This document shows, one piece after another, positions 6,675 to 38,738 of a DNA stretch of 64,000 nucleotides. A program made the translations under genes and the position numbers. The notes under the pieces are model-generated. The model made no database searches, was not told the origin of the DNA, and saw only the letters and a list, made by a program, of their open reading frames with translations. Origin of the DNA: Pseudomonas syringae CC1557. GTDB lineage: Bacteria; Pseudomonadota; Gammaproteobacteria; Pseudomonadales; Pseudomonadaceae. The DNA lies in the NCBI RefSeq assembly GCF_000452705.1, contig NZ_CP007014.1, positions 3,224,001-3,288,000 on the forward strand. Reading direction: 5' to 3'. Position 1 is the first letter of the stretch. Every line of letters begins with the position of its first letter.

Positions 6675-6762
6675 TTTGATAGCGAACTGACAGGCATTGT
6701 TTGATGATCGACCTGTGAATACGTATGGGTGCGGCTCATGAACCTGGTCGATAAGGCTCTAT

Positions 6763-7207
6763 TCAGGCGAAAGCAAAAGGCCCTTCGAAGTTGCCGATCG
6801 GCACCCAATGCGTAATAAGCCCCGTATCGCTTTTCCAGTGATGCAACAGCAATGCTGGCGGTTCGATGTACGAGGCATCGCTGGCATCAGGGCGAAGCTG
6901 CAAGGCAATGGCTGTGGTCGTGCTTGGCGCCGTACACATCAACGTACCGCCAAAGCGAAGCTGCATGAAGCGATGGATGTGTCCGCAGACGATCCGTTCA
7001 ACGGCAGGGTATCGCGACACGACCTCGGCCAGTCGCTCGCCTCGTTCATTCCATCAGGTCGCCGCTGAACAGAATCAGATCGGGGGGCGGGGCGAGGGCG
7101 TTTATCGTGTCGACGGCAGCCGCCAGCATCGCGTTCGAATCAACCACTCCCTGATAGAGCTGCCCCCTTGGACGTACATGCGTGTCGGATATTTGCGCAA
7201 TCAGCAT
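6763..7207 (-). pseudogene. remnant of CpdA-like 3',5'-cyclic-nucleotide phosphodiesterase (internal deletion plus frameshift)
   Basis: Reading from an ATG at 7207, the first part is an intact metallophosphoesterase N-terminus: MLIAQISDTHVRPRG, then a typical helix, then DLILFSGDLM. It stops at a TGA about 7061-7059 (just after SGDLME). A second frame, open from about 7050 to 6763, resumes with SRYPAVERIVCGHIHRF, the conserved GHxH metal-binding motif, and runs to a normal C-terminus. Between the two, the middle of the family is gone, including the GNHD motif, in all probably more than 100 residues, and the frames differ. Intact CpdA-like enzymes are about 260 residues. Both metal-binding ends remain but the centre does not, so I regard the gene as inactivated by deletion. 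Sequencing error cannot explain so large a loss. Confidence 0.85.
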
Positions 7208-7315
7208 TGCATTACCTCAATCGTGATCAGGTTGCCCGTTCATTAACACAACGAGCTTTGCAACGAGCGGGCCAGACTGCGCCGGATCACTGGGTACTCC
7301 CGAAGGAGATGACTA

Positions 7316-7903: not shown

Positions 7904-8430
7904 TGGGCAGCTCCGGCAGATTTCATGGCGCTCAGCCCGGCGGCCAGACGTACCTGATAGGACAGGAATGCGATCAATTGCGCCAGGACCACGATTTCCG
8001 CGGTGCTCAGGCCTTGTTGCTGCAATGCCTGCAAGGCATGTTGATCACCCTGCACCGGAGACTCGATCAAGGTGCGGGTAAAGCTCAGGATCGCCGCCAA
8101 TCGTGGGTCTTTCAGCCTATCGATCCGGCTGCCATCAATATCGGCACGTACACAGTTGTCCAGACCGAGCTTTTCCAGCTGCGCCAGGTAATGCGCGGTC
8201 AGGGTTGGCTGCGCGCTTAGCCGCGTTGCGTAATAGGCGACCCACAGGCGCTCGATCAGCGACAGGTTGTTATCCAGTGCCGGATCGAAAAACAATTGCT
8301 GGCTGCCTTCGGTGGCTGATGCAACCTTGTCCCGCGCATGGCGCACGGTGTGCAACGGGCTGCCTGGCTCGATAGCCAGCAGTTCATCCAGCAAGTCCGG
8401 CGTTGTCTGATGTTCAGCAGTCGATGTCAT
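7900..8430 (-). CDS. CMD-domain protein, Avi_7170-like
   Basis: A 176-residue protein of the carboxymuconolactone decarboxylase-like fold. It has no CxxC pair, unlike its downstream partner, which may make it a structural or regulatory half of a hetero-oligomer. The C-terminal helix region (GLSTAEIVVLAQLIAFLSYQ) is the typical CMD pattern. I recognise the arrangement of a CMD protein overlapping an AhpD-like protein, next to a Dpp-type transporter, as the Avi_7170/Avi_7169 pair. The ATG at 8430 lies 70 bp after the binding-protein stop. The biochemical role is unknown. Confidence 0.75.
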   Translation of the reverse strand: MTSTAEHQTTPDLLDELLAIEPGSPLHTVRHARDKVASATEGSQQLFFDPALDNNLSLIERLWVAYYATRLSAQPTLTAHYLAQLEKLGLDNCVRADIDGSRIDRLKDPRLAAILSFTRTLIESPVQGDQHALQALQQQGLSTAEIVVLAQLIAFLSYQVRLAAGLSAMKSAGAAQ

Positions 8431-8500
8431 GAAATACCCTGCAATGCTGTGGTGGCGTTCGCGCTGTCGCTGTCACAAGCGCTGCGCGAACCGAGGAAGA

Positions 8501-10066
8501 TCAAGGCTGTTCGGTGACCATGGTCGCTGCGGTACGGTCGCTGACCAGCGGCTCGACTTTCAGGCCTTTGCGCGCGGCCCAGATGTTCTGGTAATGAAAC
8601 AGCGGAATGATGCCGACGTCGTCGCTGACCACCTTGACCGAGTCCTGGAGGATTTTGCGGCGCTTGGCTTCATCGAATTCGGCAGTCGAATCGGCCAGCG
8701 CCTTGTCCACCAGCGGGTTGCTGTAATGGCCCCAGTTGGAGGCGCCCAGCCCCTTGCTGCTGTTGACTGTGGTCAGAATGTTGGTCAGCGCATAAGCCGC
8801 TTCACCCGTGCCATTGCCCCAGGCAATCACACTGATGGCCAGTTCATTCTTGTTTGCCTTGCCCGCGTATACGGCCCACGGCAGTACTTCCAGCTGCACC
8901 TTGACGCCGATTCGCGTCCAGAACTGCGCCACGGCCTGCATGACTTCCGGCGCTTGCGGGTAACGGTCGCCCGGTACGTGTACGGTCAACTGAAAACCTT
9001 CGGGAAAGCCTGCCTGCGCCAGCAGGTCCTTGGCCTGTTTGACGTCATACGGGATGTTCTTGATCTCAGGGTTGTAACCGAAGGTGTTGGCCGGCATCCA
9101 CTGGTTGGCCTCGGTGACCGTGCCCTGCATGATGCGCTCGTCGATGGCCGGACGATTGATCGCCAGGGACAGCGCCTTGCGCACCCGCACGTCCAGCAAT
9201 GGGTTCTCGGCCAGCGGCTTGCCCGCGTTATCACGAATGAACTCGTTGGGACCGACGCGGAAGCTCGGCTGAATGATCAACGCACGCAGCCCCTGATAAG
9301 CAAACACATTCACGCTTGGCGTCTTGCGCAGGCGCTCGACATCGGTTGGCGACACCTTGTCGATCACGTCCACGTCGCCTGCCAGCAAAGCCGCCGTTCG
9401 ATTGGCCGCGTTAGCGATGAAACGGAAATCAACCTTGTCCCAGGTCGGCTTCGCGCCCCAGTAACTGTCATTGCGGGCAAAGATCGTGCGGTCGCCCGGC
9501 ACGTAGGACACAAAGCGATAAGGCCCGGTGCCGATCATGGCCTTGCCCGAATTGTAATCGGCACTGCTCGCCGTCGCGCCTGCGTGCCGACTGACAATGT
9601 AGATCGAGTCGATGTCCGGCAGCAGGTTGGCGTTGGGCAGACGGGTCTTGATAATCAGCGTGTGCTCATCCCTGGCCTTGACCGATTCCACCGTGCGCAT
9701 GGCACCCGCGTAAGAGGCGACACTGCCCGGTACGCTGCGCGCACGCTCGAAAGAGAACACCAGATCGTCAGCCGTCAGTGGCGTGCCGTCCTGCCATTTC
9801 ACGTCATCACGCAGGGCAAACTCCCACGTGGTGTCGTCCACGACTTTCCAGCTTTTCGCGAGCCCAGGCAGGGTCTTGTCGTCGCGACGGCTGACCAGCG
9901 ATTCAAAGGCATGCAGCGCCACCGAACGGTCGCCCGCGTAGTTGTTCAACTGTGGATCAAGGGACGAGACCGGGTCGGCATAACCGATACGCAGGTCCTG
10001 CGCCGAGGCACTGCCGGCTGCCAGTAGCAGAGCCGAGGCCAGCAACGAACGAACGAGTGGTTTCAT
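8501..10066 (-). CDS. dipeptide/oligopeptide-type ABC transporter substrate-binding protein
   Basis: A 521-residue extracellular solute-binding protein of family 5 (DppA/OppA fold). It starts with a signal peptide (MKPLVRSLLASALLLAAGSASA). The mature protein begins QDLRIGYADPVSSLDPQLNN, with the family's typical opening, followed by RDDVKWQDGTPLTADDLVFS (about residues 88-107). These proteins bind peptides but also nickel, opines, glutathione and other organic ligands, so the name does not fix the substrate. It is encoded 64 bp downstream of the second ATPase gene and upstream of the two CMD genes. I think it is the KPN_01854-like subfamily, which keeps company with Avi_7169/7170 proteins, but I hold that with moderate confidence only. 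Confidence 0.9.
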   Translation of the reverse strand: MKPLVRSLLASALLLAAGSASAQDLRIGYADPVSSLDPQLNNYAGDRSVALHAFESLVSRRDDKTLPGLAKSWKVVDDTTWEFALRDDVKWQDGTPLTADDLVFSFERARSVPGSVASYAGAMRTVESVKARDEHTLIIKTRLPNANLLPDIDSIYIVSRHAGATASSADYNSGKAMIGTGPYRFVSYVPGDRTIFARNDSYWGAKPTWDKVDFRFIANAANRTAALLAGDVDVIDKVSPTDVERLRKTPSVNVFAYQGLRALIIQPSFRVGPNEFIRDNAGKPLAENPLLDVRVRKALSLAINRPAIDERIMQGTVTEANQWMPANTFGYNPEIKNIPYDVKQAKDLLAQAGFPEGFQLTVHVPGDRYPQAPEVMQAVAQFWTRIGVKVQLEVLPWAVYAGKANKNELAISVIAWGNGTGEAAYALTNILTTVNSSKGLGASNWGHYSNPLVDKALADSTAEFDEAKRRKILQDSVKVVSDDVGIIPLFHYQNIWAARKGLKVEPLVSDRTAATMVTEQP

Positions 10067-24582: not shown

Positions 24583-25905
24583 GTGAGCACTACACAACAA
24601 TCGGCCTCACAGCACCATGATCGAACCCATCAGCAGAAAGCGCGCCGCGCAGTCACCGCCACAGTGATCGGCAATGGCCTTGAATGGTTCGACTTTACGG
24701 TTTACAGCTTCTTCTCGGTCATCATTGCCAAAGTATTCTTCCCCACCGGCAGCGAACTGACCTCTTACCTGCTGGCACTGGCGACGTTCGGCGTCGGTTT
24801 TTTCATGCGCCCGGTCGGCGGCATCGTGCTCGGCATCTACAGTGACAAGCGTGGTCGCAAGGCTGCGCTGTCGCTGACCATCCTGCTCATGGCGCTGGGC
24901 ACACTGATCATCGGCCTGACCCCGAGCTTCGCGCAGATCGGCTACCTGGCACCGGTGCTGATCGTGCTGGCGCGCCTGCTGCAGGGCTTCTCCGCCGGTG
25001 GCGAAATGGGCAGCGCCACCGCCTTTCTAACTGAGCATGCCCCCGAGGGCAAGAAGGCTTTCTATTCCAGCTGGATTCAGGCCAGCATCGGCGTTGCGGT
25101 GCTGCTCGGCTCGGCACTGGGTGCGCTCCTGTCGACGTATCTGACCCAGGCACAGCTCGAAAGCTGGGGCTGGCGTGTGCCGTTTCTGATCGGCACGCTG
25201 ATTGGCCCGGTCGGCTTCTACATTCGCAGCCGGGTCGACGAAACGCCTGCTTACAACGCCGCCAAACAGGTCGAATCGCCCCTGCGCGAAGTCATACAAA
25301 CGTATCCGCGCCAGACACTCATCAGCTTTTCGCTGGTGGTGCTGTGGACCGTCTGCACCTACGCGATCCTGTTCTACATTCCATCCTATGCGCAGCGCGT
25401 ACTTGGCCTGCCGTCATGGATGGGATTCAGCGCCGGCATGATGGGCGGCGCGGTGCTGATCGTCGCCACCCCGATTGTCGGCGCACTGGCCGACCGCAGC
25501 GGCCATCGTCCCTGGTTGCTGGGATCGGCCATCGCAATCTTCTTCAGCGCCTACCCGATGTTTCTGCTCATCAACCAGATGCCGGGGCTTTATTCGCTGC
25601 TGATCTTCGAGCTGGTGCTCGGCTTGCTGATCTCCGCCTACATCGGTTCGATCCTCGCGGCCTTTGGTGAGTTGTTGCCGACCCACGTGCTGTCCACCGG
25701 CCTGTCAGTGGCCTACAACTTCGCCGTGACCATTTTCGGCGGCTTTGCCACCTTCACCATTACCTGGTTGATCTCCACAACCGGCAGCAACCTTGCACCC
25801 GCCTTTTACATCATGTTCGCCGCCATCGTCAGCGGCAGCGGCGCGCTGCTCTATAGCGATCGCGCGCCAACCGTTCATCGCCCTTTGACTGGAGCTTTCC
25901 AATGA
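24583..25905 (+). CDS. MFS transporter, metabolite:H+ symporter (MHS) type
   Basis: A 440-residue major-facilitator protein with about twelve hydrophobic helices. GNGLEWFDFTVYSFF in the first helix and MRPVGGIVLGIYSDKRGRK in the loop between helices 2 and 3 are hallmarks of the MHS group (ProP, KgtP, citrate and shikimate carriers). I use the GTG at 24583, with AGGAG 8 bp upstream. Its stop overlaps the start of the amidohydrolase by 4 bp, so it probably imports that enzyme's substrate or exports its product. MHS carriers usually take up organic acids or zwitterions. The particular ligand is unknown. Confidence 0.92.
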   Translation: MSTTQQSASQHHDRTHQQKARRAVTATVIGNGLEWFDFTVYSFFSVIIAKVFFPTGSELTSYLLALATFGVGFFMRPVGGIVLGIYSDKRGRKAALSLTILLMALGTLIIGLTPSFAQIGYLAPVLIVLARLLQGFSAGGEMGSATAFLTEHAPEGKKAFYSSWIQASIGVAVLLGSALGALLSTYLTQAQLESWGWRVPFLIGTLIGPVGFYIRSRVDETPAYNAAKQVESPLREVIQTYPRQTLISFSLVVLWTVCTYAILFYIPSYAQRVLGLPSWMGFSAGMMGGAVLIVATPIVGALADRSGHRPWLLGSAIAIFFSAYPMFLLINQMPGLYSLLIFELVLGLLISAYIGSILAAFGELLPTHVLSTGLSVAYNFAVTIFGGFATFTITWLISTTGSNLAPAFYIMFAAIVSGSGALLYSDRAPTVHRPLTGAFQ

Positions 25906-27161
25906 ATACCGCTGAATCCCCCTGCCTGATCCTGCGCAACGGCCGCCTGCTGGACCTGCAACTGGGCGAGTTGATCACCGGCCAGGAAGTCGTGATCGAG
26001 GGCGAGCGCATCGTCGAGGTGCGCGCTGAGGGTCAACCTGCCCCGGCCAACGCGCAGGTGGTTGATCTGGGCGGCAGGACCCTGATGCCCGGCCTGATCG
26101 ATTGCCACGTACACGTACTGGCGTCCAATGCCAATCTGGGCATGAACGCCTTGCAGCCCAACGCGATCATCATGTACCGCGCGCTGCCGATTCTGGCGGC
26201 GATGCTCAATCGTGGTTTCACCACCGTGCGTGACGCCGGCGGTGCCGACTGGGCGTTGGCGCGTTCGATTCAGATGGGCCTGATTCCGGGCCCGAGGATT
26301 TTTGCATCCGGCAAAGCGCTGTCGCAGACCGGTGGCCACGGCGACATGCGCGCCCGAGGTGAACTGCTGCTCAACGAGCCTTGCTCATGTTGCTTCCGGG
26401 CCGGGGCCATCGCCCGCGTGGTCGATGGCGTCGACAATGTGCGCCTGGCAGTGCGTGAAGAGCTGCAACAAGGCGCCAACCAGATCAAGATCATGGCCTC
26501 GGGCGGCGTTTCATCGCCCACCGATCCGATTGCCAACACTCAATACAGCGAGGCCGAAATTCGCGCCATCGTCGACGAAGCGGCAGCGGCCAATACCTAC
26601 GTCATGGCCCATGCCTACACAGCCCGGGCCATTCGCCGTGCCATCGAATGCGGTGTGCGGACCATCGAGCATGGCAATCTGGTGGACGCCGACACCGCTC
26701 GCCTGATGGCCGAAAAAGGCGCGTTTGCGGTGCCGACCCAGGTCACCTACGAGATGCTCGCCGAGTACGGCGAACGCTTCGGCCTGCCCGCTGATTCAGT
26801 GGCGAAGATCGAAGACGTACGACAGGCCGGGCGTAACGCTCTGTTGCTGTTCGCCGAAGCCGGCGTACCCATGGGCTATGGCTCGGATCTGCTAGGCGAA
26901 ATGCACGAATATCAGACCCACGAACTGAAGATTCGCGCGGAGCTGCTGGGTAATCTGGCAGCGCTGCGCAGTGCCACCAGTGTTGCCGCACAGATTCTGC
27001 AACGCGAAGGTGAACTGGGCTGCATTGCTGCCGGGGCGATTGCCGATCTGCTGGTGGTGGACGGCGACCCGCTGAGCGACATCAGCTGCCTTGTGGGCCA
27101 GGGTGAGCAGCTGGCGATGATTGTTCAGGGTGGTCAGGTGCGCAAGAACACCCTGCTCTGA
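25902..27161 (+). CDS. metal-dependent amidohydrolase (Xaa-Pro dipeptidase/imidazolonepropionase-like)
   Basis: A 419-residue amidohydrolase. After a beta-sandwich start, DCHVHVLAS (about residues 67-75) gives the HxH metal pair. KIMASGGVSSP has the lysine that is usually carbamylated (about residue 196), MAHAYTARAIRRA and EHGNLVD give two more metal-ligand histidines, and MGYGSDLLGE has the catalytic aspartate (about residue 329). It is coupled by a 4-bp overlap to the MHS transporter. The pattern fits the group of bacterial amidohydrolases that hydrolyse N-acylated amino acids or cyclic amides. The true substrate is not apparent. It converges on the deacetylase gene with only 7 bp between the stops. 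Confidence 0.9.
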   Translation: MNTAESPCLILRNGRLLDLQLGELITGQEVVIEGERIVEVRAEGQPAPANAQVVDLGGRTLMPGLIDCHVHVLASNANLGMNALQPNAIIMYRALPILAAMLNRGFTTVRDAGGADWALARSIQMGLIPGPRIFASGKALSQTGGHGDMRARGELLLNEPCSCCFRAGAIARVVDGVDNVRLAVREELQQGANQIKIMASGGVSSPTDPIANTQYSEAEIRAIVDEAAAANTYVMAHAYTARAIRRAIECGVRTIEHGNLVDADTARLMAEKGAFAVPTQVTYEMLAEYGERFGLPADSVAKIEDVRQAGRNALLLFAEAGVPMGYGSDLLGEMHEYQTHELKIRAELLGNLAALRSATSVAAQILQREGELGCIAAGAIADLLVVDGDPLSDISCLVGQGEQLAMIVQGGQVRKNTLL

Positions 27162-27168
27162 CCCGCCG

Positions 27169-28068
27169 TCAGTGAGCGTTGTGGTCCCAGATCCAGTTCC
27201 ACACGCCGGGTAAGTGAACAGGCTGGTCGGCGTTCCTGACGGTACGCGCCAAGGCAGCGCGCTGCAATTGCGCGCTGTCATCGTAAAACGGCTTTTCGGC
27301 CAGACGCACGCCGGTCTGCGCCGCGCTGTCGACCAGTATCTGCAAATATTCCTGCGCGTGCCGTGCGGTGTAGCGGTTCAGGTCATGGAAGGTCACCACC
27401 ACCGGAATCACTCCGTCGACCGCAGGCATTTCCCCGGCAGCAATGCGCTCGCGTACCTGAGATAGCTGGCTGACCATGTTCGAGCGCCGCCGCAGGCTGA
27501 AGTTGTAACCCCAGATTTTACCGTCGTTGGCGCTCAGGTCAGTCAGCAAGACATGCAGGCCGTGGCGCTGATAGGCGCTGAACGTGCGTTTGTCGTAGTT
27601 CCAGAATGGCGGCCGCAGCAAAACGGTCGGCGCCCCGGTGATGGAGGCCATAATGGCGCAGCCCTTGCTCAGGGACTGCTCCAGTTCGTCGTCGGTCAAC
27701 GAGCGATGATTGGTGTGGTGCGGTGTGGCGGAATGAAAGCCCAGCAGATGGCCTTCCTCATGCTCGCGCTGCATGATCGCCCGGCCTTGATCACTGTTGC
27801 CCGCGCCTGTTGCGCCGGTCTGTACGAAAAATACCGCCTTGATGTGCGGCTGAACCGGGTTCTCGGCCAGGCTGTCGAGCACCGTGATACTCGGGTTGTA
27901 AAACGTCGAAGCACTCGGGCCGTCGTCAAAAGTCAGCAGGAAACGAACCGGCGGCTGCTGACGCAACTGCTCGGCAGTCTTTGCCGTCAGCGGCACTGGC
28001 GCACTGATGCAGGCCGACAGGCTCAGGGCGATGGCAAGCATCCACAGGGCATTGAATACGGGTTTCAT
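27169..28068 (-). CDS. polysaccharide deacetylase-family lipoprotein
   Basis: A 299-residue protein with a lipoprotein signal (MKPVFNALWMLAIALSLSAC; lipobox Cys20) and a NodB-homology domain. TFDDGPS (about residues 48-54) gives the catalytic and metal-binding Asp pair. HSATPHHTNH and RPPFWNYD supply the metal histidines and the Arg motif. It is probably anchored to the outer or inner membrane, facing the periplasm, and removes N- or O-acetyl groups from a glycan or, less likely, another amide. Its ATG overlaps the stop of the GNAT-C39 gene by 4 bp, so the two are co-translated. Why a deacetylase is coupled to a protease-acyltransferase is unexplained. Confidence 0.88.
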   Translation of the reverse strand: MKPVFNALWMLAIALSLSACISAPVPLTAKTAEQLRQQPPVRFLLTFDDGPSASTFYNPSITVLDSLAENPVQPHIKAVFFVQTGATGAGNSDQGRAIMQREHEEGHLLGFHSATPHHTNHRSLTDDELEQSLSKGCAIMASITGAPTVLLRPPFWNYDKRTFSAYQRHGLHVLLTDLSANDGKIWGYNFSLRRRSNMVSQLSQVRERIAAGEMPAVDGVIPVVVTFHDLNRYTARHAQEYLQILVDSAAQTGVRLAEKPFYDDSAQLQRAALARTVRNADQPVHLPGVWNWIWDHNAH

Positions 28069-29228
28069 CTGAGGGCTGGATCCTTTGCGTGAGCTGCCAA
28101 AGCCTTGTGTAAAGCGGACGAATGATCATCCACCGGCGCGGCAAACACAATAACCGCAGCTCTGAGTTTGTCGGCGCCGAAACAGCTCATGCGGTTGAAG
28201 TCAGCGTGGCTGACCGGCATGTGCTGGCAGTCGATGGCCTGACGATGCAGGCTGTGATCGATGTCAGGATCGTGCAGGTAGACAAAATCGCTGTCGCAAT
28301 CGGTCACCATTACCCAATGCGGGGCCTTGGAGCGTGTCAGGCGGTAGCTGCTGATCAGCACCAGGGGTTTGCCACCGTCGGCCAGTACACGCGGCAGATT
28401 CAGCGAGCGATTGGGTAACGATTGCACACCGCAGGCGTCAAGCTCGCGACAGAACTGTTCGTGAACCAGACGGATGACTTGTTTCTTGTTGTCGCTGCGC
28501 ACTCCGCCCAGAAACAACGGGCCTGACACCGACACCAGCAGATTCACCGCAAAACCGCGCCGCCATGCCGCCAGTGCCAGGCCTTGTGGGCTACACCCGC
28601 CGTGACCGGAGGTCATGAACACCGTGGTCGCTTCGCGCCAGATCTGCACTTCTTCAGCGCGGTCCATCAAACGCTCGGGCTGCAAGGCTTTCATGGCCAT
28701 CAATAAACAGGCCGGGCCACAGGTGAAATCCAGCGTCTGCTGGTAGTAAGGCACCGAACGGCTGTCGTGCCTGACGTGCTCGACGATACGCTTCTCGTAA
28801 CGAAGCGCCGGGGCGTGGTCCTGGTAGTAATCGTCGACCTGAGCGAAACGCCGATAACCGTTGCGCTCGTACAGGCCAATCGCTGCGGCATTGTCGGGCC
28901 GCACCTCCAGCCGCAGGTACGCGCAATCGCGCTCCACCGCCTGTTGTTCGGCACGCTGCAACAACTGTCTGCCCAGCCCCTGTCCCCTCGCAGACTCGGC
29001 GATCGCCAGCGAATACAAACGCCCCAGCGAAGTGCCGCGATGGAACAGCACCAGCGCGTAACCGGTGAGTTGACCCGCGTGCTCGGCGACGATCAGACAC
29101 GCGTTGGCGCGGCGGATCATCCAGTGAAAACTGCGTGCCGTCAGCCGGTCGCCTTCAAAGCTCTGGTTCTCCAGAAACAGCAGCGCCTCGACATCGGCTT
29201 CAACTGCATCACGAAATATAAAGTCCAT
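28065..29228 (-). CDS. fusion of GNAT acetyltransferase and C39-type papain-fold peptidase
   Basis: A 387-residue two-domain protein. Residues about 1-150 are a GNAT N-acetyltransferase (SLAIAESARGQGLGRQLL is the acetyl-CoA loop; GLYERNGYRRF is motif B). Residues about 165-370 are a C39-type peptidase: TCGPACLLM has the catalytic Cys, HWVMVTDCD the His, and YLHDPD the following Asp. I prefer the ATG at 29228, and a GTG at 29234 is possible. It is divergent from a RimK-like ATP-grasp gene across 93 bp, a neighbourhood I recall from comparative work on amidoligases, where these proteins are predicted to form a peptide or tag system. It is predicted to be cytoplasmic, with no signal peptide. Neither activity is proven. 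Confidence 0.85.
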   Translation of the reverse strand: MDFIFRDAVEADVEALLFLENQSFEGDRLTARSFHWMIRRANACLIVAEHAGQLTGYALVLFHRGTSLGRLYSLAIAESARGQGLGRQLLQRAEQQAVERDCAYLRLEVRPDNAAAIGLYERNGYRRFAQVDDYYQDHAPALRYEKRIVEHVRHDSRSVPYYQQTLDFTCGPACLLMAMKALQPERLMDRAEEVQIWREATTVFMTSGHGGCSPQGLALAAWRRGFAVNLLVSVSGPLFLGGVRSDNKKQVIRLVHEQFCRELDACGVQSLPNRSLNLPRVLADGGKPLVLISSYRLTRSKAPHWVMVTDCDSDFVYLHDPDIDHSLHRQAIDCQHMPVSHADFNRMSCFGADKLRAAVIVFAAPVDDHSSALHKALAAHAKDPALR

Positions 29229-29321
29229 CTGCACCGCCGTAAAAGTTGTGTAACGAAACGGGACATTTCAAAAAGCACATGCTTAATAGAAAGGACTTGT
29301 TTCCCATCGGATCGATTACAC

Positions 29322-30908
29322 ATGTCAGCGGCACAGGTGAAGATGAACGAAGTATCGGCCCAACTTGCACTTTCAGCAACAACCAGACGTGCAGCCCCCA
29401 CACCCCCCTTTGCAGCGCAGAGGCAACTGGTGATTATTGTCGAACGGCTTGAAGACTGGGCATCGTACTTCCCCAGCGAAGACTTGATCAGCGCTCAGGA
29501 CTATCTCGAAAAACCGCTGAAAGCCACAGCAGGCAAGCGTGTACAAGTTATCAACCTGTGCCGGAGCTACAAGTACCTGGGCCATGGCTATTACTGTTCG
29601 CTGCTGGCCGAAGCGCGCCAGCACAATGTAATTCCTTCGGTAAAAACCATCAGCGAGTTAACGCGAAAATCACTCTACGGCCTGGCCCTGGACGACCTCG
29701 ACAAGTTGCTGGAGACGGCACTTCAGGATCATCCCTATGACGACACCGAAGGGTTTACCCTGACGCTGTACTTCGGCCAGACCACACTGGAACCGTTGAA
29801 AGATCTGGCCCGTCAGTTGTTTGAAGCCTTTCCCTGTCCGATCCTGATGGTCGAGTTTCGCAAGCGTGACAATTGGCATATCGCCGGTATCAAAGCCGGC
29901 GCCCTGCCCCGTTTGCGCGATGATCAGCAAGACGAGTTTGCCATCGCGCTGGACGGTTTCAGCCGCAAGATCTGGCGACAGCCCAGCTCTCGTCGTCTGG
30001 CGCGTTACGACCTGGCGATCCTCCACGACCCGCAGGAGCAACTGCCGCCGTCCAACACTCAGGCGCTGGCCAACTTCATTCGCGTCGGTCAGCGTCTGGG
30101 CATTGATGTCGAGCTGATTGAAAAAAAGGACTATGCCCGTCTGGCGGAGTACGACGCACTGCTGATTCGAGAAACCACCAGTGTCGATAACCACACCTAC
30201 CGGTTTGCCAAAAAAGCCGAAAGCGAAGGCCTGGTGGTCATGGATGACCCCACGTCAATTCTGCGCTGCACCAACAAGGTGTACCTGACCGACCTGCTGA
30301 AAAGCCACGAGCTGGGGATGCCACGAACCGAAATACTCTACAAGGATCGCCCCGAGGAACTGCAACACGTCGCCACGCGGCTGGGTTTCCCGCTGGTACT
30401 GAAAATCCCTGACGGCTGCTTCTCCAGAGGCGTCATCAAGGTCAGCACACCCGAGGAGATGCACACCGCGACGACCCAGTTGTTCGAGCATTCGGTGTTG
30501 TTGCTGGCACAGGAGTTTTTCTACACCGAATACGACTGGCGCATCGGCATTCTCAATCGCAAGCCGATATTTGCCTGCCAGTACTTCATGTCCAAGGGGC
30601 ATTGGCAGATCTACAACCACAAGGCGATTGGTGCCGAGGTCATTGGCGAATGCCGCACGCTTGCGGTACACGAAGCGCCGAGGGCTGTGGTCGAACTGGC
30701 GCTCAAGACCGCCAACCTGATCGGTGACGGGCTTTATGGTGTCGACCTGAAACAATCCGGTGATCAAGTCGTGGTGATTGAAGTCAACGACAACCCGAAT
30801 CTGGATGCCGGTATCGAAGACGCTTATCTGCAGGATGATCTGTACAGTCTGGTGCTGGAAGAATTCATTCGGCGCCTGGAACTCAAGCGCCTCGGCCAGG
30901 CATGGTGA
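29322..30908 (+). CDS. RLAN-domain RimK-family ATP-grasp ligase
   Basis: A 528-residue enzyme. The N-terminal RLAN domain (about residues 40-200) shows LVIIVERLEDWASYFPSED and NLCRSYKYLGHGYYCSLLAE. The RimK-type ATP-grasp domain (about residues 225-520) has FPLVLKIPDGCFSRGVIKV, the nucleotide-binding lysine region, and VIEVNDNPNLDAG, the metal-binding acidic residues. It should join a carboxylate to an amine with ATP, as RimK adds glutamate to ribosomal protein S6. I chose the ATG at 29322, and an ATG at 29343 is an alternative. It is divergent from the GNAT-C39 gene and followed 4 bp later by a CorA-like gene. Its acceptor, peptide or protein, is unknown. Confidence 0.85.
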   Translation: MSAAQVKMNEVSAQLALSATTRRAAPTPPFAAQRQLVIIVERLEDWASYFPSEDLISAQDYLEKPLKATAGKRVQVINLCRSYKYLGHGYYCSLLAEARQHNVIPSVKTISELTRKSLYGLALDDLDKLLETALQDHPYDDTEGFTLTLYFGQTTLEPLKDLARQLFEAFPCPILMVEFRKRDNWHIAGIKAGALPRLRDDQQDEFAIALDGFSRKIWRQPSSRRLARYDLAILHDPQEQLPPSNTQALANFIRVGQRLGIDVELIEKKDYARLAEYDALLIRETTSVDNHTYRFAKKAESEGLVVMDDPTSILRCTNKVYLTDLLKSHELGMPRTEILYKDRPEELQHVATRLGFPLVLKIPDGCFSRGVIKVSTPEEMHTATTQLFEHSVLLLAQEFFYTEYDWRIGILNRKPIFACQYFMSKGHWQIYNHKAIGAEVIGECRTLAVHEAPRAVVELALKTANLIGDGLYGVDLKQSGDQVVVIEVNDNPNLDAGIEDAYLQDDLYSLVLEEFIRRLELKRLGQAW

Positions 30909-30912
30909 AACG

Positions 30913-31842
30913 ATGATTCAAGGTCTGAAACTTGATGCCGGTCGATTGCAGCCCTGTGACTCGCAAAAGGCTCAGGTGCTGTGGTTCAGCAAACCTGATG
31001 CTGGCGAGCGCAGGTTGCTGCTGGAGCAGTTCCACCTCGACGAGCATGCGGTGGCCTCGGCGCTCGACCCGGATGAAATATCGCGCATCGAGTTTCATCC
31101 CGATGCGTTGTTTTTGATCTGGAAACGCCCCGAGAACTATTCGGGCAAGGACAGCTTCTCGTTCGATGTTTCATCATTTGGCGTGCTGCTGAGTCAGGAT
31201 CAACTGCTGCTGATCTGTGATGACGATCAGCTCTTGAGCACGCTGGGGTCTCATCGTCCTCTGAACCAGCCGCTGGATATCCTGCTGGAGATGCTGTTCA
31301 ACAACATTCACCACTATCTGGGACACTTGAAGGTCATCAAGATGGTCGCCCGGGAATTGCAGCAGAAATTCAACTCATCGCTGGAAAACCGCCATCTGTT
31401 GCAAATGTTCAACCTCAGCGAAAGTCTGGTCTATTACATCAACGCTATCCACAGCAATGGCGCGGTGCTGACGCGCCTGCGCAATCACGCGCAAGGCAAG
31501 CAATACGCGGCTACCAGTCTGGCGCTGATCGACGACATGATCATCGAGAACGATCAGTGCTACAAACAGGCTGAAATATATTCCACCGTGTTCGCCGGTC
31601 TGATGGATGCACGGGGCAACCTGGTCAACAACAGCACCAACACCCTGCTGCGCAAACTGACTTTGATCAACGTGGTGTTTCTGCCGTTGAACCTGATTGC
31701 CGGAATCGGCGGCATGTCAGAATTCAGCATGATGACCGCCCCGCTACAGTGGTGGGTGTCTTACCCGGCCTTGCTACTGGCCATGCTCGGGCTCGGGGCG
31801 GTGATGGTCCTGGGACTGCGCAAAATGGCCCGCTCGACCTGA
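30913..31842 (+). CDS. CorA-like divalent-cation channel protein with GMS instead of GMN
   Basis: A 309-residue CorA superfamily protein with a cytoplasmic alpha/beta and coiled-coil region (about residues 1-240) and two C-terminal membrane helices (LINVVFLPLNLIAGIGG, about residues 255-272, and WWVSYPALLLAMLGL, about 282-300). CorA and ZntB channels carry Gly-Met-Asn (GMN) at the end of the first helix. Here the tripeptide is GMS in GIGGMSEF. The gene starts 4 bp after the ATP-grasp stop, so co-translation is likely. It may move Mg2+ or another ion in support of the ligase system, or it may no longer be a selective channel. The GMS change is unusual. Confidence 0.82.
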   Translation: MIQGLKLDAGRLQPCDSQKAQVLWFSKPDAGERRLLLEQFHLDEHAVASALDPDEISRIEFHPDALFLIWKRPENYSGKDSFSFDVSSFGVLLSQDQLLLICDDDQLLSTLGSHRPLNQPLDILLEMLFNNIHHYLGHLKVIKMVARELQQKFNSSLENRHLLQMFNLSESLVYYINAIHSNGAVLTRLRNHAQGKQYAATSLALIDDMIIENDQCYKQAEIYSTVFAGLMDARGNLVNNSTNTLLRKLTLINVVFLPLNLIAGIGGMSEFSMMTAPLQWWVSYPALLLAMLGLGAVMVLGLRKMARST

Positions 31843-31846
31843 GCCG

Positions 31847-32698
31847 TTACTTTTCCCAGTCGGCCTTGGCGATCTGCAAACCATGCAGCCCGTTGTACGC
31901 CGCACGCTCGGGAGACTGCCAGCCCTCCAGTAACGAGGCGTCGAGGTCATAGATCTCGACACCCAACGGCCGGCAGACGCTTAGCGGGTCCTGGGCCTCA
32001 GGGCCCCACATTGGCAGTGACAGGTCGCCACCCGGACAGGTCGACAGCGCACACAGCAGGTCGATCTCCGCAAAAAACTCCAGGTAGTCGCCCTTCTGCG
32101 CTGGGCAGGCTTTCATGAAATACATATCGTCGTGATTCAGGCCGGTGCACTGAAAGATGTTCAGCACATCGTGCACATCGAATTCGGTCAGACCATGCGG
32201 CAACACTGCGCGAGTCAGGTTCGAATGGCAGTGGTGATGAAAGTCTTCGCCGGTCAGCATCTTGTTGACGTAAGGGTCACAGCGCGTACCGAGCAAGTCG
32301 TGCAGGCGGCCGCCATGCTCGTCGATGCCGTAGCTGGCGAGGCTGTCATCGGTGATGGTAACCAGCGGCCGCAGGAACGGCAGGTTCGACCACAACCGGT
32401 CATGGGTGCTGACGTGCGCACCCTGCAACTGACGCGTGCGCGCTGCCCATAAGCGTTCGCGAGGGTCATTGGCATTCCATACGTTGAAATCGCCCACTTG
32501 CGGCCCGACCGGTGTGGTGACGCGAAACACCTGGCCAGCCCTGACCTTCCACGCGCGCCCGGTGCGAATCGGTACTTCGAACTGTTCGACCAATGTGCGC
32601 TGCTGCGCATTCGCCCGTATACGCTCGTAAAAAGCCGTGTCCACTTGCAGCGCTGCGCCCTTGCTGACCTGATAGGCGGCTGGGTAGTCTTTGTACAT
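31847..32698 (-). CDS. DUF1989 (urea carboxylase-associated) family protein
   Basis: A 283-residue protein of the DUF1989 family, often annotated as urea carboxylase-associated. Visible landmarks are the N-terminal VRAGQVFRV, VGDFNVWNAND (about residues 68-78), the histidine-rich HHHCHSNL near residue 154, and TCPGGDLSL near residue 225. The clustered His and Cys suggest a metal site. It converges with the CorA-like gene (4 bp between stops), so it is not in that operon, and it lies 71 bp from the dnaE2 stop. No urea carboxylase or allophanate genes are in the window, so any nitrogen role is unsupported here. Start ATG at 32698 is preceded by GAGAAG. Confidence 0.8.
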   Translation of the reverse strand: MYKDYPAAYQVSKGAALQVDTAFYERIRANAQQRTLVEQFEVPIRTGRAWKVRAGQVFRVTTPVGPQVGDFNVWNANDPRERLWAARTRQLQGAHVSTHDRLWSNLPFLRPLVTITDDSLASYGIDEHGGRLHDLLGTRCDPYVNKMLTGEDFHHHCHSNLTRAVLPHGLTEFDVHDVLNIFQCTGLNHDDMYFMKACPAQKGDYLEFFAEIDLLCALSTCPGGDLSLPMWGPEAQDPLSVCRPLGVEIYDLDASLLEGWQSPERAAYNGLHGLQIAKADWEK

Positions 32699-32769: not shown

Positions 32770-35700
32770 TCACTGAAAATCCCGACTGCGCACATCCAGC
32801 CCTGTCAGCAGCGGCGTGAGGTCATACAGCCGCTGGGCGATCAGGTGGCGCACGCCGCTTTTCGATTCCAGCCGTCCGAACACGTGCAGTAACTGCGAAC
32901 CGACCAATACCTTGCGCTGGCGCTCGGCCAGGTCGCGCCAGACCACGACATTGACCATGCCGAACTCATCTTCCAGCGTCACGAAGGTCACGCCGCTGGC
33001 AGTGCCCGGTCGTTGTCGGCCGATAACCAGACCTGCCACGCTGAGGGTTCGGTCGTTTTCCAGCGTCAGCAAGTCCTGCGAGCTGCGAAAGCGCTTGGCA
33101 GCCAGTTGCCGCCGCAGCAAGGCCAATGGGTGTGGACCAAGGGTGGTGCCGAGTGTGGCGTAATCGGCAACCAGGTCTTCGGCCACGGTCGGCAGCGGCA
33201 GCGTTACCTGGGTTTCTTCGCTGGGCAGGTCGCTGAACAGCGGACGCTGGGCTTCGACCCCTGCCACTTCCCAGCGCGCCCGGTGCCGATGGCCGATCAG
33301 ACCGCGCAAGGCCCCGGAATCTGCAAGTGCTTCGGCGGCGCGAGCATCGAGCCCGGCGCGTAACGTCAGGTCCGTAGCATCGGCAAACGGTCGCTTCGAA
33401 CGCGCCGTTTCGATACGCAAGGCATCGTCTTCACGAAAGCCACCCACCATACGCAACCCGAGACGAATGGCCAGATTGCGCGTGCTGTCAGGGTGGTCCA
33501 GCGGTTCCAGCGAGCAATCCCAGTGGCTGTAACGGATGTCCACCGGGCGTATTTCGATGTGATGACGCCGCGCGTCTTGCAGCAGTTGGTCCGGGCTGTA
33601 AAAGCCCATCGGCCAGCTGTTGATCAGCGCGCAGGTAAAGGCTGCCGGCTCATTGCATTTGAGCCAGCAACTGGCATAGGTCAGCAAGGCAAAGCTGGCG
33701 GCATGGGATTCAGGAAAGCCGTAGCTGCCGAAGCCTTTGATCTGTTCGAAGATGCGGTCGGCAAAGTCCGCTTCGTAACCGTTGTTCAGCATGCCTGTGC
33801 GCAAACGCTCACGGTGCGGATCCAGCCCGCCGTGGCGTTTCCAGGCGGCCATGGCGCGGCGCAATTCGTCGGCCTCGCCGGGCGTATAACCCGCGGCAAT
33901 GATCGCCACTTCCATGACCTGTTCCTGAAACAGCGGTACGCCCAAGGTGCGCTCAAAGACACTTTTCAGCTTGGGCGGATAGGTGATGACTTCCTCTTTA
34001 TTACGCCGACGCAGGTACGGATGAACCATGTCGCCCTGAATCGGCCCCGGCCGGACAATGGCGACTTCGATGACCAGGTCATAAAACTTCTCGGGCCTGA
34101 GGCGTGGCAGCATGGCCATCTGGGCACGGGACTCGATTTGGAATACGCCGATGGTGTCGGCGCGGCTGATCATTTCGTAGGTTTTCCGATCATCACCTGG
34201 CAGATTTGCCAGGGTCCAGCGCTTGCCTCGGTGCAGATGCACCAAATCGAACGTCCTGCGCAGTGCACTGAGCATGCCCAGTGCAAGGATGTCGACTTTC
34301 AGCAGGCCGACCAGATCCAGATCGTCCTTGTCCCATTGAATGATGGTGCGCTCGGCCATCGCCGCATTCTCGACCGGCACCAGTGTGTCCAGCGGGTGCT
34401 CGGAAATCACGAAGCCGCCCGGATGCTGCGAGAGATGCCGAGGGAAGCCGATAAGCTCGCCGGTCAGTGCCAGCACACGCTTTAGGATCGGTGTGTCGGC
34501 ATCGAAACCGTATTCGCGCAAGCGTTCGGGCGAAGGCAGCGAGTCGCTCCAGCGACTGAACGCTTCGGACAAAGTATTGATCTGGTCAGACGGCAAGCCC
34601 AGCACCTTGGCCACGTCACGCAGTGCGCCAGAACCGTGATAAGTGCTGGCCACGGCGGTCAGCGCCGCCCTGCCCCGGCCGTAACGCCGGAATATGTACT
34701 GGATGACTTCTTCGCGGCGGTCATGCTCGAAATCCACGTCAATGTCGGGGGGTTCGTTGCGCTCTTTGGAAATGAAGCGTTCGAACAACAGGTTGCTCTG
34801 TTCCGGGTTCAGCTCGGTGATGCCCAGCGCGTAGCACACTGCCGAGTTGGCCGCCGACCCACGGCCCTGACAAAGAATGTGCTGGCTGCGGGCAAACTCG
34901 ACGATGTCGTGGACCGTCAGAAAGTAGCTATCGAACTTCTTTTCCGTGATCAGGGCCAGTTCTTTCTCGACCTGCGCACGCGTCGACACACTCAAGCCTT
35001 TCGGCCAGCGCCTGCGAATTCCGCGCTCGGTCAGCTCGCGCAGCCATGATGTGGAGGTCTGCCCCTTGGGCACCAGTTCATGGGGGTATTCATAGCGCAA
35101 TTGATCGAAGGTGAAGGTGCAGCGCCGGGCAATGCGCGCCGACTCGGCCAGCAGCCAGTCAGGGTAATGCTCGGCCAGTGCGTCGAGTGGACGTAGATGG
35201 CGCTCGCCGTTGGCAAAGAGCAGGTGCCCGGCTTCGGCCACGGTGGTGTGATGGCGGATGGCAGTCATGGTGTCCTGCAAAGCGCGTCGCCCACGGGCAT
35301 GCATGTGTACGTCGCCGCTGGCCACTGCCGGAATGCCCAGCGACTGCGCCAGCGCCAGCAAATCGGCCAGACGCTGATCGTCATCCGCACCGCGATGCAG
35401 CTCTACGCCCAGCCACAGGCGCTCGGCAAAATGCTCGCGCAACCAGTTGCCCTGCGCCAGACAGGTTTGAGCGTCGCCTTCGATATCCGCCAGCCAGATG
35501 GCCAGCAAACCACGGGATGAGTGCTCGAAATCTTCACGCAGCAGACGATATTCACCCTTTTTGGCCCTGCGCCGGGCAGCGGTGATCAACCTGCACAGCG
35601 CTTCATATCCCGTTTTGTCCTCCACCAGCAGGACAATCTTCGGGCCATTTTCGATGTGCATTTCGCTGCCGACGATCAACGGCAGACCGGTTTTCTGCGA

Positions 35701-35865
35701 CGCCTGCCAAGCGCGAACGATACCTGCCAGGGTGCATTCGTCGGTAATCGCCAGCGCCGTGTAGCCATGGCGCACGGCCCGCTCGAACAACTCACGGGCA
35801 CTTGAAGCGCCACGCTGAAAGCTGAAGTTGGACAGGCAATGCAGCTCGGCATAGTCGGTACTCAT
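32770..35865 (-). CDS. dnaE2: error-prone DNA polymerase DnaE2 (ImuC)
   Basis: A 1031-residue C-family DNA polymerase, the usual DnaE2/ImuC size. The N-terminal PHP domain opens [15 protein letters not shown]. The catalytic Asp pair is in [16 protein letters not shown] (about residues 370-385), with a third acidic residue in the palm further on. The helix-hairpin-helix region and an OB-fold ([19 protein letters not shown]) follow near the C-terminus. It extends primers past lesions in the SOS mutasome with ImuA and ImuB. I take the ATG at 35865, which overlaps the imuB stop by 4 bp. Longer readings add residues antisense to imuB. It is the last gene of the lexA2-imuA-imuB-dnaE2 operon. Confidence 0.95.
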
Positions 35866-37277
35866 GCGAACCAGCCGTGCAGCAGCAGTTCGCCCTGCTC
35901 GCCAACGCTGCGATAGGCCCAGGCGCGCTGGCCATTGAGGGTTTCGACCAGATAATAGTCGCGGCGCACATCCCCACCGTCCCACCAGCCAGACTCGATT
36001 CGTTCCGGACCGGCCAGAATGCGCGTGGTATGCACAGGCAACGGCTGCGGCTCTCGCAACAGCCAGCCCGGACGCGTACAGCCGCGTGCGGGCAGAACCG
36101 GGTTGCGAGTGCTGTACGGTTGCCAGGCACATTCCGGACGATGATCCGCCTGGGCGCGCAGGCCAGAGACTGACTCGTCGCCCAGCCGCGCCCGCAAGCG
36201 TTCGCGCAGTTGCTCCCAGGGCAAGGTCTGTTGCACGCGCTCATCGAACAGCTCGCGGTGGGCCGGCACGAAATCCGGCAGATCCCGCGCCAGCAAACGC
36301 ACCGCCCGTACCGGCGAGGCTACCAGCACCTGTTCCAGCCTGCCGCGCGCCAGTTCGAAAAGCATCGAAACATCGCGTTCGGCACTGAGCAACCCGACCG
36401 GGATGACCGTTTCCGGGCCGTCGACGTGCTCCAGGTGCAGGGCAAATCGCTGCACACCGCTGTCGCGTCCTGCCAGAAACAATGCCAGGTCGGCAATCAG
36501 GCGTTTAAGGGGGAACAACAGGGCCTGATGCGATTCGACATCGAAATTCAGCTCGATACGCACATCGAAGAAGTCAGGCGGCGTGTAGCACTCCAGCGCC
36601 ACGGGACGTGCTCCCAGCAGTGTGTCGAAGTGCTGCAAGACACCGGCCGGGAAACGCCGCGCCAGGGTATCGCGCGGCAACGCCAGCACTTGCCGCACGC
36701 TGCGCAAGCCCATGCGTGTCAGGGCGGTGGTGATTTCGCGGCTCAGGCCGATACGCTCCAGCGGCATCTGTTCCAGGGTCCGGCGCAATTCATGTGGGCA
36801 ATCGATACTCAGCCCGTCGTGCATGTTGGCCAGCATTCGCGCTGCTACCGGATTGGGCGCCACCACGATGCGATGCCGAAAGCCCTGCTCGGTCAGTTCT
36901 TCACGCAAACGCGCCTCGAACACGGGCCACGGCCCGAACAGCTTGAGGCTGGACTCGATTTCCATCAGCAGCACGCGAGGATATTTAAGGCTGACATTGG
37001 AGCTGAAGCCGTAGGCCCAGGCTGCAAGCAGTTGTTGCAAGCGCTCTATGTCGGACGGGTCGTGCTCGACTGTGGTGAAGTTCGGCACCAATGCCTGCGC
37101 TGCGGTCAATGCTTGCCCGGCTTTCAACCCCAGCGTACGCGCAGCCGGATTGACCGCTTGCACCACCCGGCGCTGGGCGCTGCCGCTGATCAGCGCCAAA
37201 GGTTCGTCGGGATTTACATGACGGCGCATGACGCCGTCGAGTGCCAGTTGCGGCAGCAAGACACAGGCCCACAGCAT
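35862..37277 (-). CDS. imuB: ImuB, Y-family polymerase-like mutasome scaffold
   Basis: A 471-residue Y-family homologue. It starts [15 protein letters not shown], with GAGG about 8 bp upstream of ATG 37277. The acidic catalytic residues of active Y polymerases are missing: the usual DEA/SIDE region reads [13 protein letters not shown] here. This is the known state of ImuB proteins, which act as scaffolds rather than polymerases. A QTLPW motif in the C-terminal half is a plausible beta-clamp binding site. Overlap of 4 bp with dnaE2 and a 7-bp gap from imuA indicate one transcription unit. Its role is to bring DnaE2 to the sliding clamp after DNA damage. Confidence 0.92.
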
Positions 37278-37284
37278 AAGAACC

Positions 37285-37908
37285 TCAAGCGCCGGTCGGA
37301 AACGGGATGGGAAAAGGCGGCGCAAGCCCGCCCCGGCATTTGAGCACCCGCAATTGTGCAGGCCGGGTATCGAGGACCACGCGCAGGGCTGCTGGCGAGG
37401 GGTTGGCAGCCGCCTGCTGAGGGCGACAGGCAAACGCCAGGGTCTGCCCGGTTTCAGCGGCCACCTGCAATCGCCGCAGCGCACGGTCATCAACCATACC
37501 GGGCCAGCACACCACCGCACCGCAACTGCCGGAACGCAGACATTGCTCAGCCGCCCACAGCGCATCGCGGGCACTGGCCTCGACCACCACCAACTGACGC
37601 AGGTCGACACCGGCGGCCAGCCAGGCCTGCGGGTAGGGAATATAGGGTGGCGCAACCAGCACGATGCGCTCACCGATACTGGACAGCCGCGCCAGGCTCG
37701 GCCACAGCAAACGCAACTCGCCGCTGCCATTGGCAGGAATGAGGATTTCAGTCAGTGCCGAAGCCGGCCAGCCGCCTGTCGGCAAGGCGTTGTCGAGCGC
37801 CGCATGACCACTGGGGTGCGGGCTGAGCGCCGGTGCACTCTGCTGACGCCCTTTCCAGACCCGGCGTTCATCCAGCAGGGTATCGAGGCTGACCACCGCG
37901 CCCATCAT
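37285..37908 (-). CDS. imuA: ImuA, translesion synthesis-associated RecA-like protein
   Basis: A 207-residue member of the ImuA/SulA-like RecA-fold family. It has an N-terminal LLDERRVWKGRQQ helix, GHAALDNALPTGGWPASALTEIL (the residue region that in active RecA proteins leads into the P-loop, here without GKT), and a C-terminal region rich in Pro. The start MMGAVV at 37908 overlaps the lexA2 stop by 4 bp. It works with ImuB and DnaE2 in SOS mutagenesis. The exact biochemical role is still debated in the field. The size and order are normal for pseudomonads. Confidence 0.92.
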   Translation of the reverse strand: MMGAVVSLDTLLDERRVWKGRQQSAPALSPHPSGHAALDNALPTGGWPASALTEILIPANGSGELRLLWPSLARLSSIGERIVLVAPPYIPYPQAWLAAGVDLRQLVVVEASARDALWAAEQCLRSGSCGAVVCWPGMVDDRALRRLQVAAETGQTLAFACRPQQAAANPSPAALRVVLDTRPAQLRVLKCRGGLAPPFPIPFPTGA

Positions 37909-38522
37909 TCGCGGCGCACCAGGCCACAGAACACACCTTCGATGGCGAAGTCCTGATCGGGAGTGACGATGATCGGTTGATAGGCCGGGTTGCGTGGCAG
38001 CAGGTGCAACTGATCGCCCCGGTGCTGCAAGCGCTTGATGGTGACTTCGCCGTCCAGACGGGCGACGACGATCTGCCCGTCACTGGCCTGCGGATTGCGG
38101 TGCACGCCCACCAGATCGCCATCGAGAATACCGTCCTCGATCATCGAGTCGCCCTGCACGCGCAGCAAGTAGTCCGGCACGCGGGTAAACGTGCCACGAT
38201 CCAGGTGCAACGTGGTGTGTATGTCCAGATCCGGGCCGATGGGTGCGCCTGCAGCGACACGGCCCAGCACCGGGATTTCCAGTAACTCGGGGCGCAGCTC
38301 GCTGTTCAGCAGACGAATGCCGCGTGCCTGATGCGGTACGACCTCAATAAGACCGGCTTCAGTCAGGGCCACGATGTGTTTGCGCGCCACACTGCGCGAA
38401 GCAAATCCGAAGGCCTCGGAGATTTCCGCAAGGCTCGGCGATTGCCCTTGCTGCACGATGCGATCGCGGATGAAGGTAAGGATTGCGCTACGGCGGGGAG
38501 ATAATGTGCTCATGGAGCACAT
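37905..38522 (-). CDS. lexA2: LexA2 repressor of the mutagenesis cassette
   Basis: A 205-residue LexA. The N-terminal winged helix is PSLAEISEAFGFASRSVARK (about residues 30-49). The autocleavage Ala-Gly bond is in VAAGAPIG near residue 94. The catalytic Ser is in GDSMIEDG (about residue 126) and Lys in EVTIKRL (about residue 163). Cleavage is triggered by RecA on single-stranded DNA. This is the second LexA type of pseudomonads, in front of imuA-imuB-dnaE2. I prefer the ATG at 38522, with AAAAGAG about 6 bp upstream. An ATG at 38513 is in frame. A perfect LexA2 box overlaps both candidates' start region, so autoregulation is certain in principle. Confidence 0.92.
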   Translation of the reverse strand: MCSMSTLSPRRSAILTFIRDRIVQQGQSPSLAEISEAFGFASRSVARKHIVALTEAGLIEVVPHQARGIRLLNSELRPELLEIPVLGRVAAGAPIGPDLDIHTTLHLDRGTFTRVPDYLLRVQGDSMIEDGILDGDLVGVHRNPQASDGQIVVARLDGEVTIKRLQHRGDQLHLLPRNPAYQPIIVTPDQDFAIEGVFCGLVRRE

Positions 38523-38529
38523 TTGTACT
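38516..38529 (-). promoter_or_regulatory. LexA2 operator AGTAC-N4-GTGCT overlapping the lexA2 start codon
   Basis: On the minus strand the sequence is AGTACAAATGTGCT, an exact match to the AGTAC(N4)GTGCT box reported for the LexA2 of Pseudomonas and some other proteobacteria. It covers the ATG at 38522 and stops 2 bp before the ATG at 38513. A repressor here would block the whole cassette. Its overlap with the translation start means the transcription start must lie within or very near the box, or that the leader is extremely short. Confidence 0.9.
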
Positions 38530-38625
38530 CTTTTCGGTATTTTGTGGCTAGCGCAGTTGGTCGGATTTGAATGGCTCGATATTGCGCAGCCCAACACAGG
38601 CCTCGATGAGCCTGGAAAACCGGGA

Positions 38626-38738
38626 TTTTGTAGGAGCGAACGTGTTCCCGAAGGCGCCGTTTCAGACACTGGATCTTCTATGGACGCACTGGCCCTTTCG
38701 CTAACACGCCAAGCGTCGCGCGGTTTGCTCCTACAAAA
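38626..38738. repeat. TAGGAGC-type inverted repeat (REP-like hairpin)
   Basis: TTTTGTAGGAGC at 38626-38637 and GCTCCTACAAAA at 38727-38738 are exact reverse complements of 12 bp, with similar bases continuing outward (CCGGGA against CTGGG). The 90 bases between contain no gene. Outward from this element lie lexA2 and an aldo/keto reductase, transcribed away from it. TGTAGGAGCGA elements of this kind are common in Pseudomonas genomes. Together with the LexA box they account for most of the 335-bp gap. The rest shows nothing I recognise beyond promoter space. Confidence 0.75.

Follow-up and report, generated by a model that had tools for sequence, protein, structure and literature searches.

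We analyzed a 64,000-nt stretch (the window) of the 5.8 Mb genome of Pseudomonas syringae CC1557, concentrating on a locus that encodes a RimK-type ATP-grasp ligase with an N-terminal RLAN domain and, divergently from it, a GNAT acetyltransferase fused to a C39-type peptidase domain (GNAT-C39; the C39 part is DUF3335). The original prediction joined these two genes to those of a CorA-like protein and a polysaccharide deacetylase in a single peptide-ligation system. Open reading frames (ORFs) and Pfam matches bore out all four genes, together with a 4-bp overlap between the deacetylase and GNAT-C39 genes (28065-28068) and a 4-bp gap between the RLAN and CorA-like genes (30909-30912):

27169-28068, (-) strand: polysaccharide deacetylase with a lipoprotein-like N-terminus (PF01522); a neighbor, probably incidental
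28065-29228, (-) strand: GNAT-C39 protein (PF00583 and PF11814/DUF3335), ATG start with an alternative upstream GTG at 29234; core
29239-29253, (+) strand: CpxR-like direct repeat, GTAAA-N6-GTAA, between the two divergent core genes; putative regulator site
29260-29288, (+) strand: weak -35/-10-like pair (GGGACA, 17 bases, TTAATA) just 3´ of the repeat, toward RLAN; identified by eye
29343-30908, (+) strand: RLAN RimK-type ATP-grasp ligase of 521 residues (PF14401 and PF08443); core
30913-31842, (+) strand: CorA-like membrane protein with GMS in place of GMN (PF01544, 106 bits); Pseudomonas-level partner

RLAN loci were compared in three sets: a named set comprising the best 80 of 580 confirmed loci from a single scan, with record titles naming Pseudomonas except for one Pantoea; a phylum set of 58 loci from the 56 RLAN-positive among 299 genomes, the window's own locus excluded; and a class set of 75 loci from 81 positives among 369 genomes, the other six being already in the sets. 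With the window these make 214 loci, and a GNAT and/or C39 gene lies within our proximity limit of 3.5 kb from RLAN at 191 of them, the window included (78/80 named, 57/58 phylum and 55/75 class loci). RLAN was present in 56 and DUF3335 in 47 of the 299 phylum genomes; 46 carried both, 10 RLAN only, one DUF3335 only and 242 neither (Fisher p = 4e-43, uncorrected for kinship). The expectation that the two genes adjoin far beyond chance in distant genomes thus held, both by locus (57/58) and by genome (46 of the 56 with RLAN). The RLAN and GNAT/C39 genes of the phylum set are on the same strand in 36 pairs and on opposite strands in 21, and all 78 linked named loci have RLAN and GNAT(-C39) on opposite strands. 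When ORFs from 73 loci were clustered, a single cluster, the core, spanned 23 families, and the next two clusters reached 8 families. As judged from these neighborhoods, the conserved core is two genes, the RLAN ligase and GNAT(-C39).

Several other arrangements were noted. Two further loci fetched with the phylum set carry only a GNAT-C39 gene, and both Methanosarcina acetivorans and genome G008 have a DUF3335 match without an RLAN match, so DUF3335 also occurs in other settings. RLAN and GNAT-C39 are on separate contigs in genome G193 (L143, L144); in genome G006 (L179, L180), RLAN is beside a GNAT-only gene, with a GNAT-C39 gene elsewhere on that contig. At L079 (P. oryzihabitans) and L080 (uncultured Pseudomonas), both 8001-9548, RLAN has no adjoining GNAT, and L079 keeps the CorA-like gene. 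The P. aeruginosa plasmid record pZYPA1927 (L213) encodes an RLAN protein at 5905-7494 with 71% identity to that of the window, next to pagP, an SDR gene, a Glu/Asp ABC transporter and a gamma-glutamyltransferase. A very divergent RLAN (32% identity) in an Aeromonas caviae record (L214, 7001-8404) has a GNAT gene on the opposite strand ~0.2 kb away. A phage collection gave only four records, each with 39% coverage, over the ATP-grasp part. No RLAN-GNAT fusion was seen in the best 120 of 7999 matches, which are close relatives and so little informative.

Both core proteins retain the residues expected of active enzymes. The RLAN protein matches PF14401 (176.3 bits) and PF08443 (33.9 bits) above cut-off, its ATP-grasp part (residues 222-514) matches LysX, ArgX and RimK structures, and K354, Q390, D398, R400, D468, E480 and N482 are invariant across 44 aligned relatives. 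It scores only 27.8 of 331 bits against the NCBIfam model of RimK, the S6 glutamate ligase, below cut-off, and a separate gene in the same genome scores 469.8 bits. The GNAT domain (residues ~3-148) and the C39/DUF3335 papain-fold domain (~158-364) of the neighboring protein are also above the Pfam cut-offs. Its GNAT part matches Ard1 and RimI structures and falls short of the NCBIfam cut-off for RimI, the S18 acetylase (83.8 of 86.4 bits); a separate RimI gene scores 139.2 bits. The structure matches cover the ATP-grasp and GNAT parts only; these fill the match lists, and the RLAN and C39 folds are not addressed. Within the C39 domain, Q164, C170 and H304 are kept in all 39 aligned rows and position 320 is Asp in 30 and Glu in 9, a Gln/Cys/His/Asp set that we take to be catalytic. 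Against the PDB, the profile of the window-type C39 domain matched weakly at best (N-terminal domain of BtrH, E = 0.017). L191 and L158 were left out of alignments A1 and A2, respectively (the stretch ran into a stop), and alignment A3 holds 13 of 16 rows, L192 being left out (stop) and L187 and L199 with it.

Frequent fusion of DUF3335 to GNAT is mentioned in a published account (PMC10318531). The GNAT lacks a C39 domain at 14 of the 57 linked phylum-set loci and 11 of the 78 linked named loci, and in a quick tree of 76 ligases the starred branches force at least eight changes of the C39 label, though the method itself warns of long branches. Taken from this tree, C39 is gained and lost repeatedly while the GNAT is retained.

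A second form of the locus was found in the class set, where 16 loci have alternative partners, all on one strand. Thirteen of these combine a free C39-like peptidase, RLAN, a GCS2 amidoligase gene and an FGase-family gene, two show the C39-like gene only and one GCS2 only; among named records, one of Legionella adelaidensis has RLAN, GCS2 and FGase. The families were assigned by Pfam on representatives (PF13529 in two C39-like proteins, PF04107 and PF05013 at one locus) and by profiles at the remaining loci. None of the 214 loci carries both partner sets, and DUF3335 was above cut-off in none of the 15 second-form genomes searched (G405 excluded), with one match below cut-off (21.5 bits). The second-form ligases form a single clade of 16 rows (SH-aLRT 100, quick method) in a tree built from every second locus of the phylum set and from rows scoring 300 bits or more, with L269, L290 and L293 left out; no ligase site separates the two forms at 90/90. 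Window-form and second-form C39 domains align across the Cys, His and Asp-Pro motifs, and the free C39 of the second form matches ComA/PCAT C39 domains (E = 2e-4). DUF2817 lies within 2 kb of RLAN at 18 loci of the window form (14 in the phylum and 4 in the class set). Pfam confirmed PF10994 (DUF2817) in three such neighbors, and one of the three scanned proteins also resembles the AstE/AspA family below threshold (19.4 of 25 bits). DUF2817 and FGase are presumably both zinc-exopeptidase-like.

In Pseudomonas, the ligase gene has a further companion. A search for the CorA-like protein in 57 relatives (E 1e-30) found it in 14 genomes, all of the window's own genus, all RLAN-positive and all with the gene within 3 kb of RLAN. 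Thus, of the own-genus genomes, 14 of the 15 with RLAN have it and none of the 21 without RLAN (Fisher p = 4e-9, uncorrected for kinship); one copy (G672) contains a stop codon. The gene is present at 56/80 named loci and at 0/58 phylum-set loci, and in the 75 class-set loci the sole match is weak (25 bits) and lies on the other strand at a distance of 2.9 kb. Given this strict co-occurrence within the genus, the CorA-like gene likely has a genus-level role with RLAN. The signature motif of the CorA Mg2+ channel is GMN. The window protein reads GGMSE around residues 266-270, and the 56 copies that cover the GMN position have GMS (55) or GVS (1). This uniform loss of GMN, together with the absence of the gene from the phylum set, makes the originally proposed ion supply by the CorA-like protein doubtful.

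The divergent region contains GTAAAAGTTGTGTAA at 29239-29253. A repeat of this type (GTAAA, 5-7 bases, GTAA) is found within 330 bp ahead of the RLAN match at 67 of 81 Pseudomonas loci, the window included, which are related species and not independent, compared with 3/58 phylum-set loci (all of the window's own family) and 1/75 class-set loci. It occurred in 19 of 3240 Markov resamples. An initial GC-matched control (452/2400) mostly overlapped the promoter itself and was repeated away from the promoter; there, 27 of 2342 windows matched for GC and 3 of 3656 random ones had the repeat. The -35/-10-like pair sits in a conserved footprint in an alignment of 71 loci; a promoter scan did not return this pair and gave one site on the other strand instead (29243-29215). 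One regulator encoded in the genome is CpxR-like, sharing 47-48% identity with E. coli CpxR (the next best shares 41-42%). A CpxA-like match (31%, E = 7e-35) follows it, and there is also a weak CpxP-like match (27%, E = 0.003); the interval between the cpxR- and cpxP-like matches contains GTAAAGCTTGTGTAA on the opposite strand. In P. aeruginosa, PA1345, a "hypothetical ATP-binding protein", has a CpxR site, GTAAAGCTTGCGTAA, assigned by motif and negative in DNA affinity purification sequencing (DAP-Seq), according to a published table (PMC12802237). L213 has these 15 bases 84 bp ahead of its annotated RLAN start, from which we infer that PA1345 is probably the P. aeruginosa RLAN gene as in L213. 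Together, these matches suggest that the Pseudomonas RLAN ligase gene may be under a CpxR-type regulator acting at this putative site, although other OmpR-type regulators could bind the repeat.

The fourth gene is probably an incidental neighbor, judging by its distribution. Among own-genus genomes, a deacetylase ortholog is present in 12 of the 15 with RLAN and 8 of the 21 without it; it lies near RLAN only in the window's genome and is unlinked in the other 11 RLAN-positive carriers. The deacetylase is linked at 6/80 named loci and the window, and all four genes occur together only in the window and these six of the 80 named Pseudomonas loci (L002-L006 and L070), which among the best 80 of 580 are the nearest to the window (ligase identity 92-97%) and which we take to be of the P. 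syringae group. Deacetylase and GNAT-C39 genes overlap by 4 bp in the window, L002, L005 and L070; taking the longest-ORF starts, the overlap is larger in L003, and gaps of 3 and 36 bp separate the genes in L004 and L006, respectively. The proposal of four genes as one system was therefore rejected, with the deacetylase mostly unlinked and the CorA-like gene limited to Pseudomonas.

As for other neighbors, a DUF1989 gene 3´ of the CorA-like gene in L002 (10505-13993) and L005 (10505-13911) is represented by a 3´ fragment and, ~2.5 kb beyond it, a long copy, a pattern that points to an insertion or partial duplication. From translations only, window positions 32770-38669 hold frames resembling error-prone polymerase, ImuB/ImuA-type and LexA-like genes (an SOS mutagenesis cassette). 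No tRNA gene was found in the window.

Because a peptide ligase gene adjoins an acetylase(-peptidase) gene in many bacteria, we tentatively favor, short of calling it probable, a small end-capped peptide that is made and recycled: the ligase would build a short peptide with a blocked amino end (acetyl here, gamma-glutamyl in the second form), and C39 and an amidohydrolase would process it. In an ATP-dependent reaction, the RLAN ATP-grasp enzyme would ligate an amino acid onto the carboxyl terminus of a small acceptor. The GNAT, whose nearest structures are peptide/protein N-terminal acetylases, would block the amino end by acetylation, and the C39 domain may hydrolyze or transfer a residue. 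In the second form, GCS2 would supply a gamma-glutamyl cap and the FGase-family amidohydrolase would recycle the product, with a DUF2817 hydrolase perhaps in its place at some window-form loci. In Pseudomonas, the ligase may act with the CorA-fold membrane protein, under a CpxR-type regulator. What speaks for this in the DNA are the apparent retention of catalytic residues in the ligase, GNAT and C39, the adjoining genes and the second set of putative partners around the ligase. That the cluster makes, trims and caps a peptide, as originally predicted, is thus still a natural reading of the RLAN/GNAT-C39 pairing and the conserved, presumably catalytic, residues; it is the four-gene unit that did not stand. 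A broader proposal, doubtful as a whole, is that RLAN ligases serve one class of end-capped peptides in two interchangeable versions (acetyl/GNAT and gamma-glutamyl/GCS2) with C39-fold processing and often amidohydrolase recycling, the Pseudomonas acetyl version being induced by CpxR and envelope stress and working with the GMN-less CorA-fold protein. If true, this would give a chemical role, and a physiological setting in Pseudomonas, to an enzyme family present in 56 of 299 phylum genomes, and the two partner sets around one ligase make the capping idea testable, with ligation expected to be the same and the cap different.

Several observations weigh against an end-capped peptide. Neither partner set is present at 7 of the 214 loci (at L224 and L254, the contig ends within ~330 bp on the upstream side), and strict pairing fails at L079, L080, L143, L262, L291 and L213, the last with no GNAT or C39 within 13.5 kb of RLAN. 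Since C39 is absent from 14 of the 57 linked phylum-set loci, trimming is not essential to the module. The swap of caps is suggested solely by the replacement of genes, and we found no functional report on RLAN or DUF3335 in the literature, which does not prove that none exists. Finally, the nearest structures of both halves (RimK, ArgX/LysX, RimI and Ard1) act on protein ends, so modification of proteins also fits. This is the main rival: the ligase would extend a protein C-terminus as RimK does on S6, the GNAT would acetylate an N-terminus and C39 would remove the tag, with RimK and the protease RimB as a comparable pair in one study (PMC12239564). Modification of the ribosome is less likely, as separate RimK (469.8 versus 27.8 bits) and RimI (139.2 versus 83.8 bits) genes are present in the genome, and RimI/RimK-like activity is a weakened candidate on this count. 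No target gene is kept beside the core, which alone spans 23 families, no short ORF is common to more than two families, and the GCS2 partner of the second form points to free glutamate. We therefore regard protein-end modification as unlikely.

Two further explanations are far less probable. A four-gene envelope system in Pseudomonas, in which the peptide made by ligase and GNAT-C39 is attached to an envelope glycan that the deacetylase trims, the CorA-like protein supplying ions, would fit the overlap and gap of 4 bp in the window, the recurrence of the overlap in L002, L005 and L070, the strict association of the CorA-like gene with RLAN in the genus and the CpxR-like repeat. We consider it very unlikely, however, as linkage of the deacetylase is confined to the P. 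syringae group and the gene is common in genomes lacking RLAN, and the CorA-like protein has lost GMN and is absent from the phylum set, with a single weak, distant match in the class set. The other is a ribosomal precursor peptide that the ligase and GNAT would modify and C39 would cut, as in double-glycine systems; C39 peptidases do cleave leader peptides in ABC exporters (PMC10318531). Yet ORFs of 20-110 residues near the core at 65 loci gave three two-row groups only, none in more than two families, and no conserved ABC exporter was found among the ORF clusters. A precursor peptide thus seems highly improbable, though one confined to a single lineage is conceivable.

The end-capped peptide reading can be set beside known systems. 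A neighborhood of RLAN ATP-grasp and GNAT-C39 genes (PF14401, PF11814) was reportedly predicted by Iyer and colleagues in 2009; the same two proteins are side by side in the window, GNAT-DUF3335 as the divergent neighbor. Beyond that core pair, our analysis adds which genes belong together, the second form, the loss of GMN and the CpxR-like repeat, some of which may already be in print. Like RimK/RimB, the locus has a RimK-type ligase with a protease partner, but the protease there is a retropepsin and here a C39 enzyme, and the window ligase has the extra RLAN domain. Glutathione synthesis uses a gamma-Glu ligase and an ATP-grasp enzyme, and the second form may be analogous to this and to phytochelatin-type chemistry in joining a GCS2 gamma-glutamyl ligase family member, an ATP-grasp ligase and a papain-fold enzyme. 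By Pfam, the families of RloA (retropepsin) and RloB (inactive 7TM transglutaminase) are absent from the six window genes at 25902-32698. The P. aeruginosa Rlo operon, which also includes the ATP-grasp protein RloC, is nevertheless a locus of the same type, ATP-grasp plus peptidase, and is tied to envelope stress (PMC12239564). In synthesis of N-acetylglutaminylglutamine amide (NAGGN), Ngg is one fused protein, and no AsnO-like gene lies at the window locus. The window GNAT was rejected as a NAGGN synthetase (29.7 of 569 bits for TIGR03103), and a separate gene in the genome scores 907.7 bits. The likeness is in the combination: with AsnO, Ngg and an aminopeptidase, NAGGN synthesis also has a GNAT and an ATP-grasp domain acting together and a peptidase in the operon (PMC8070244).

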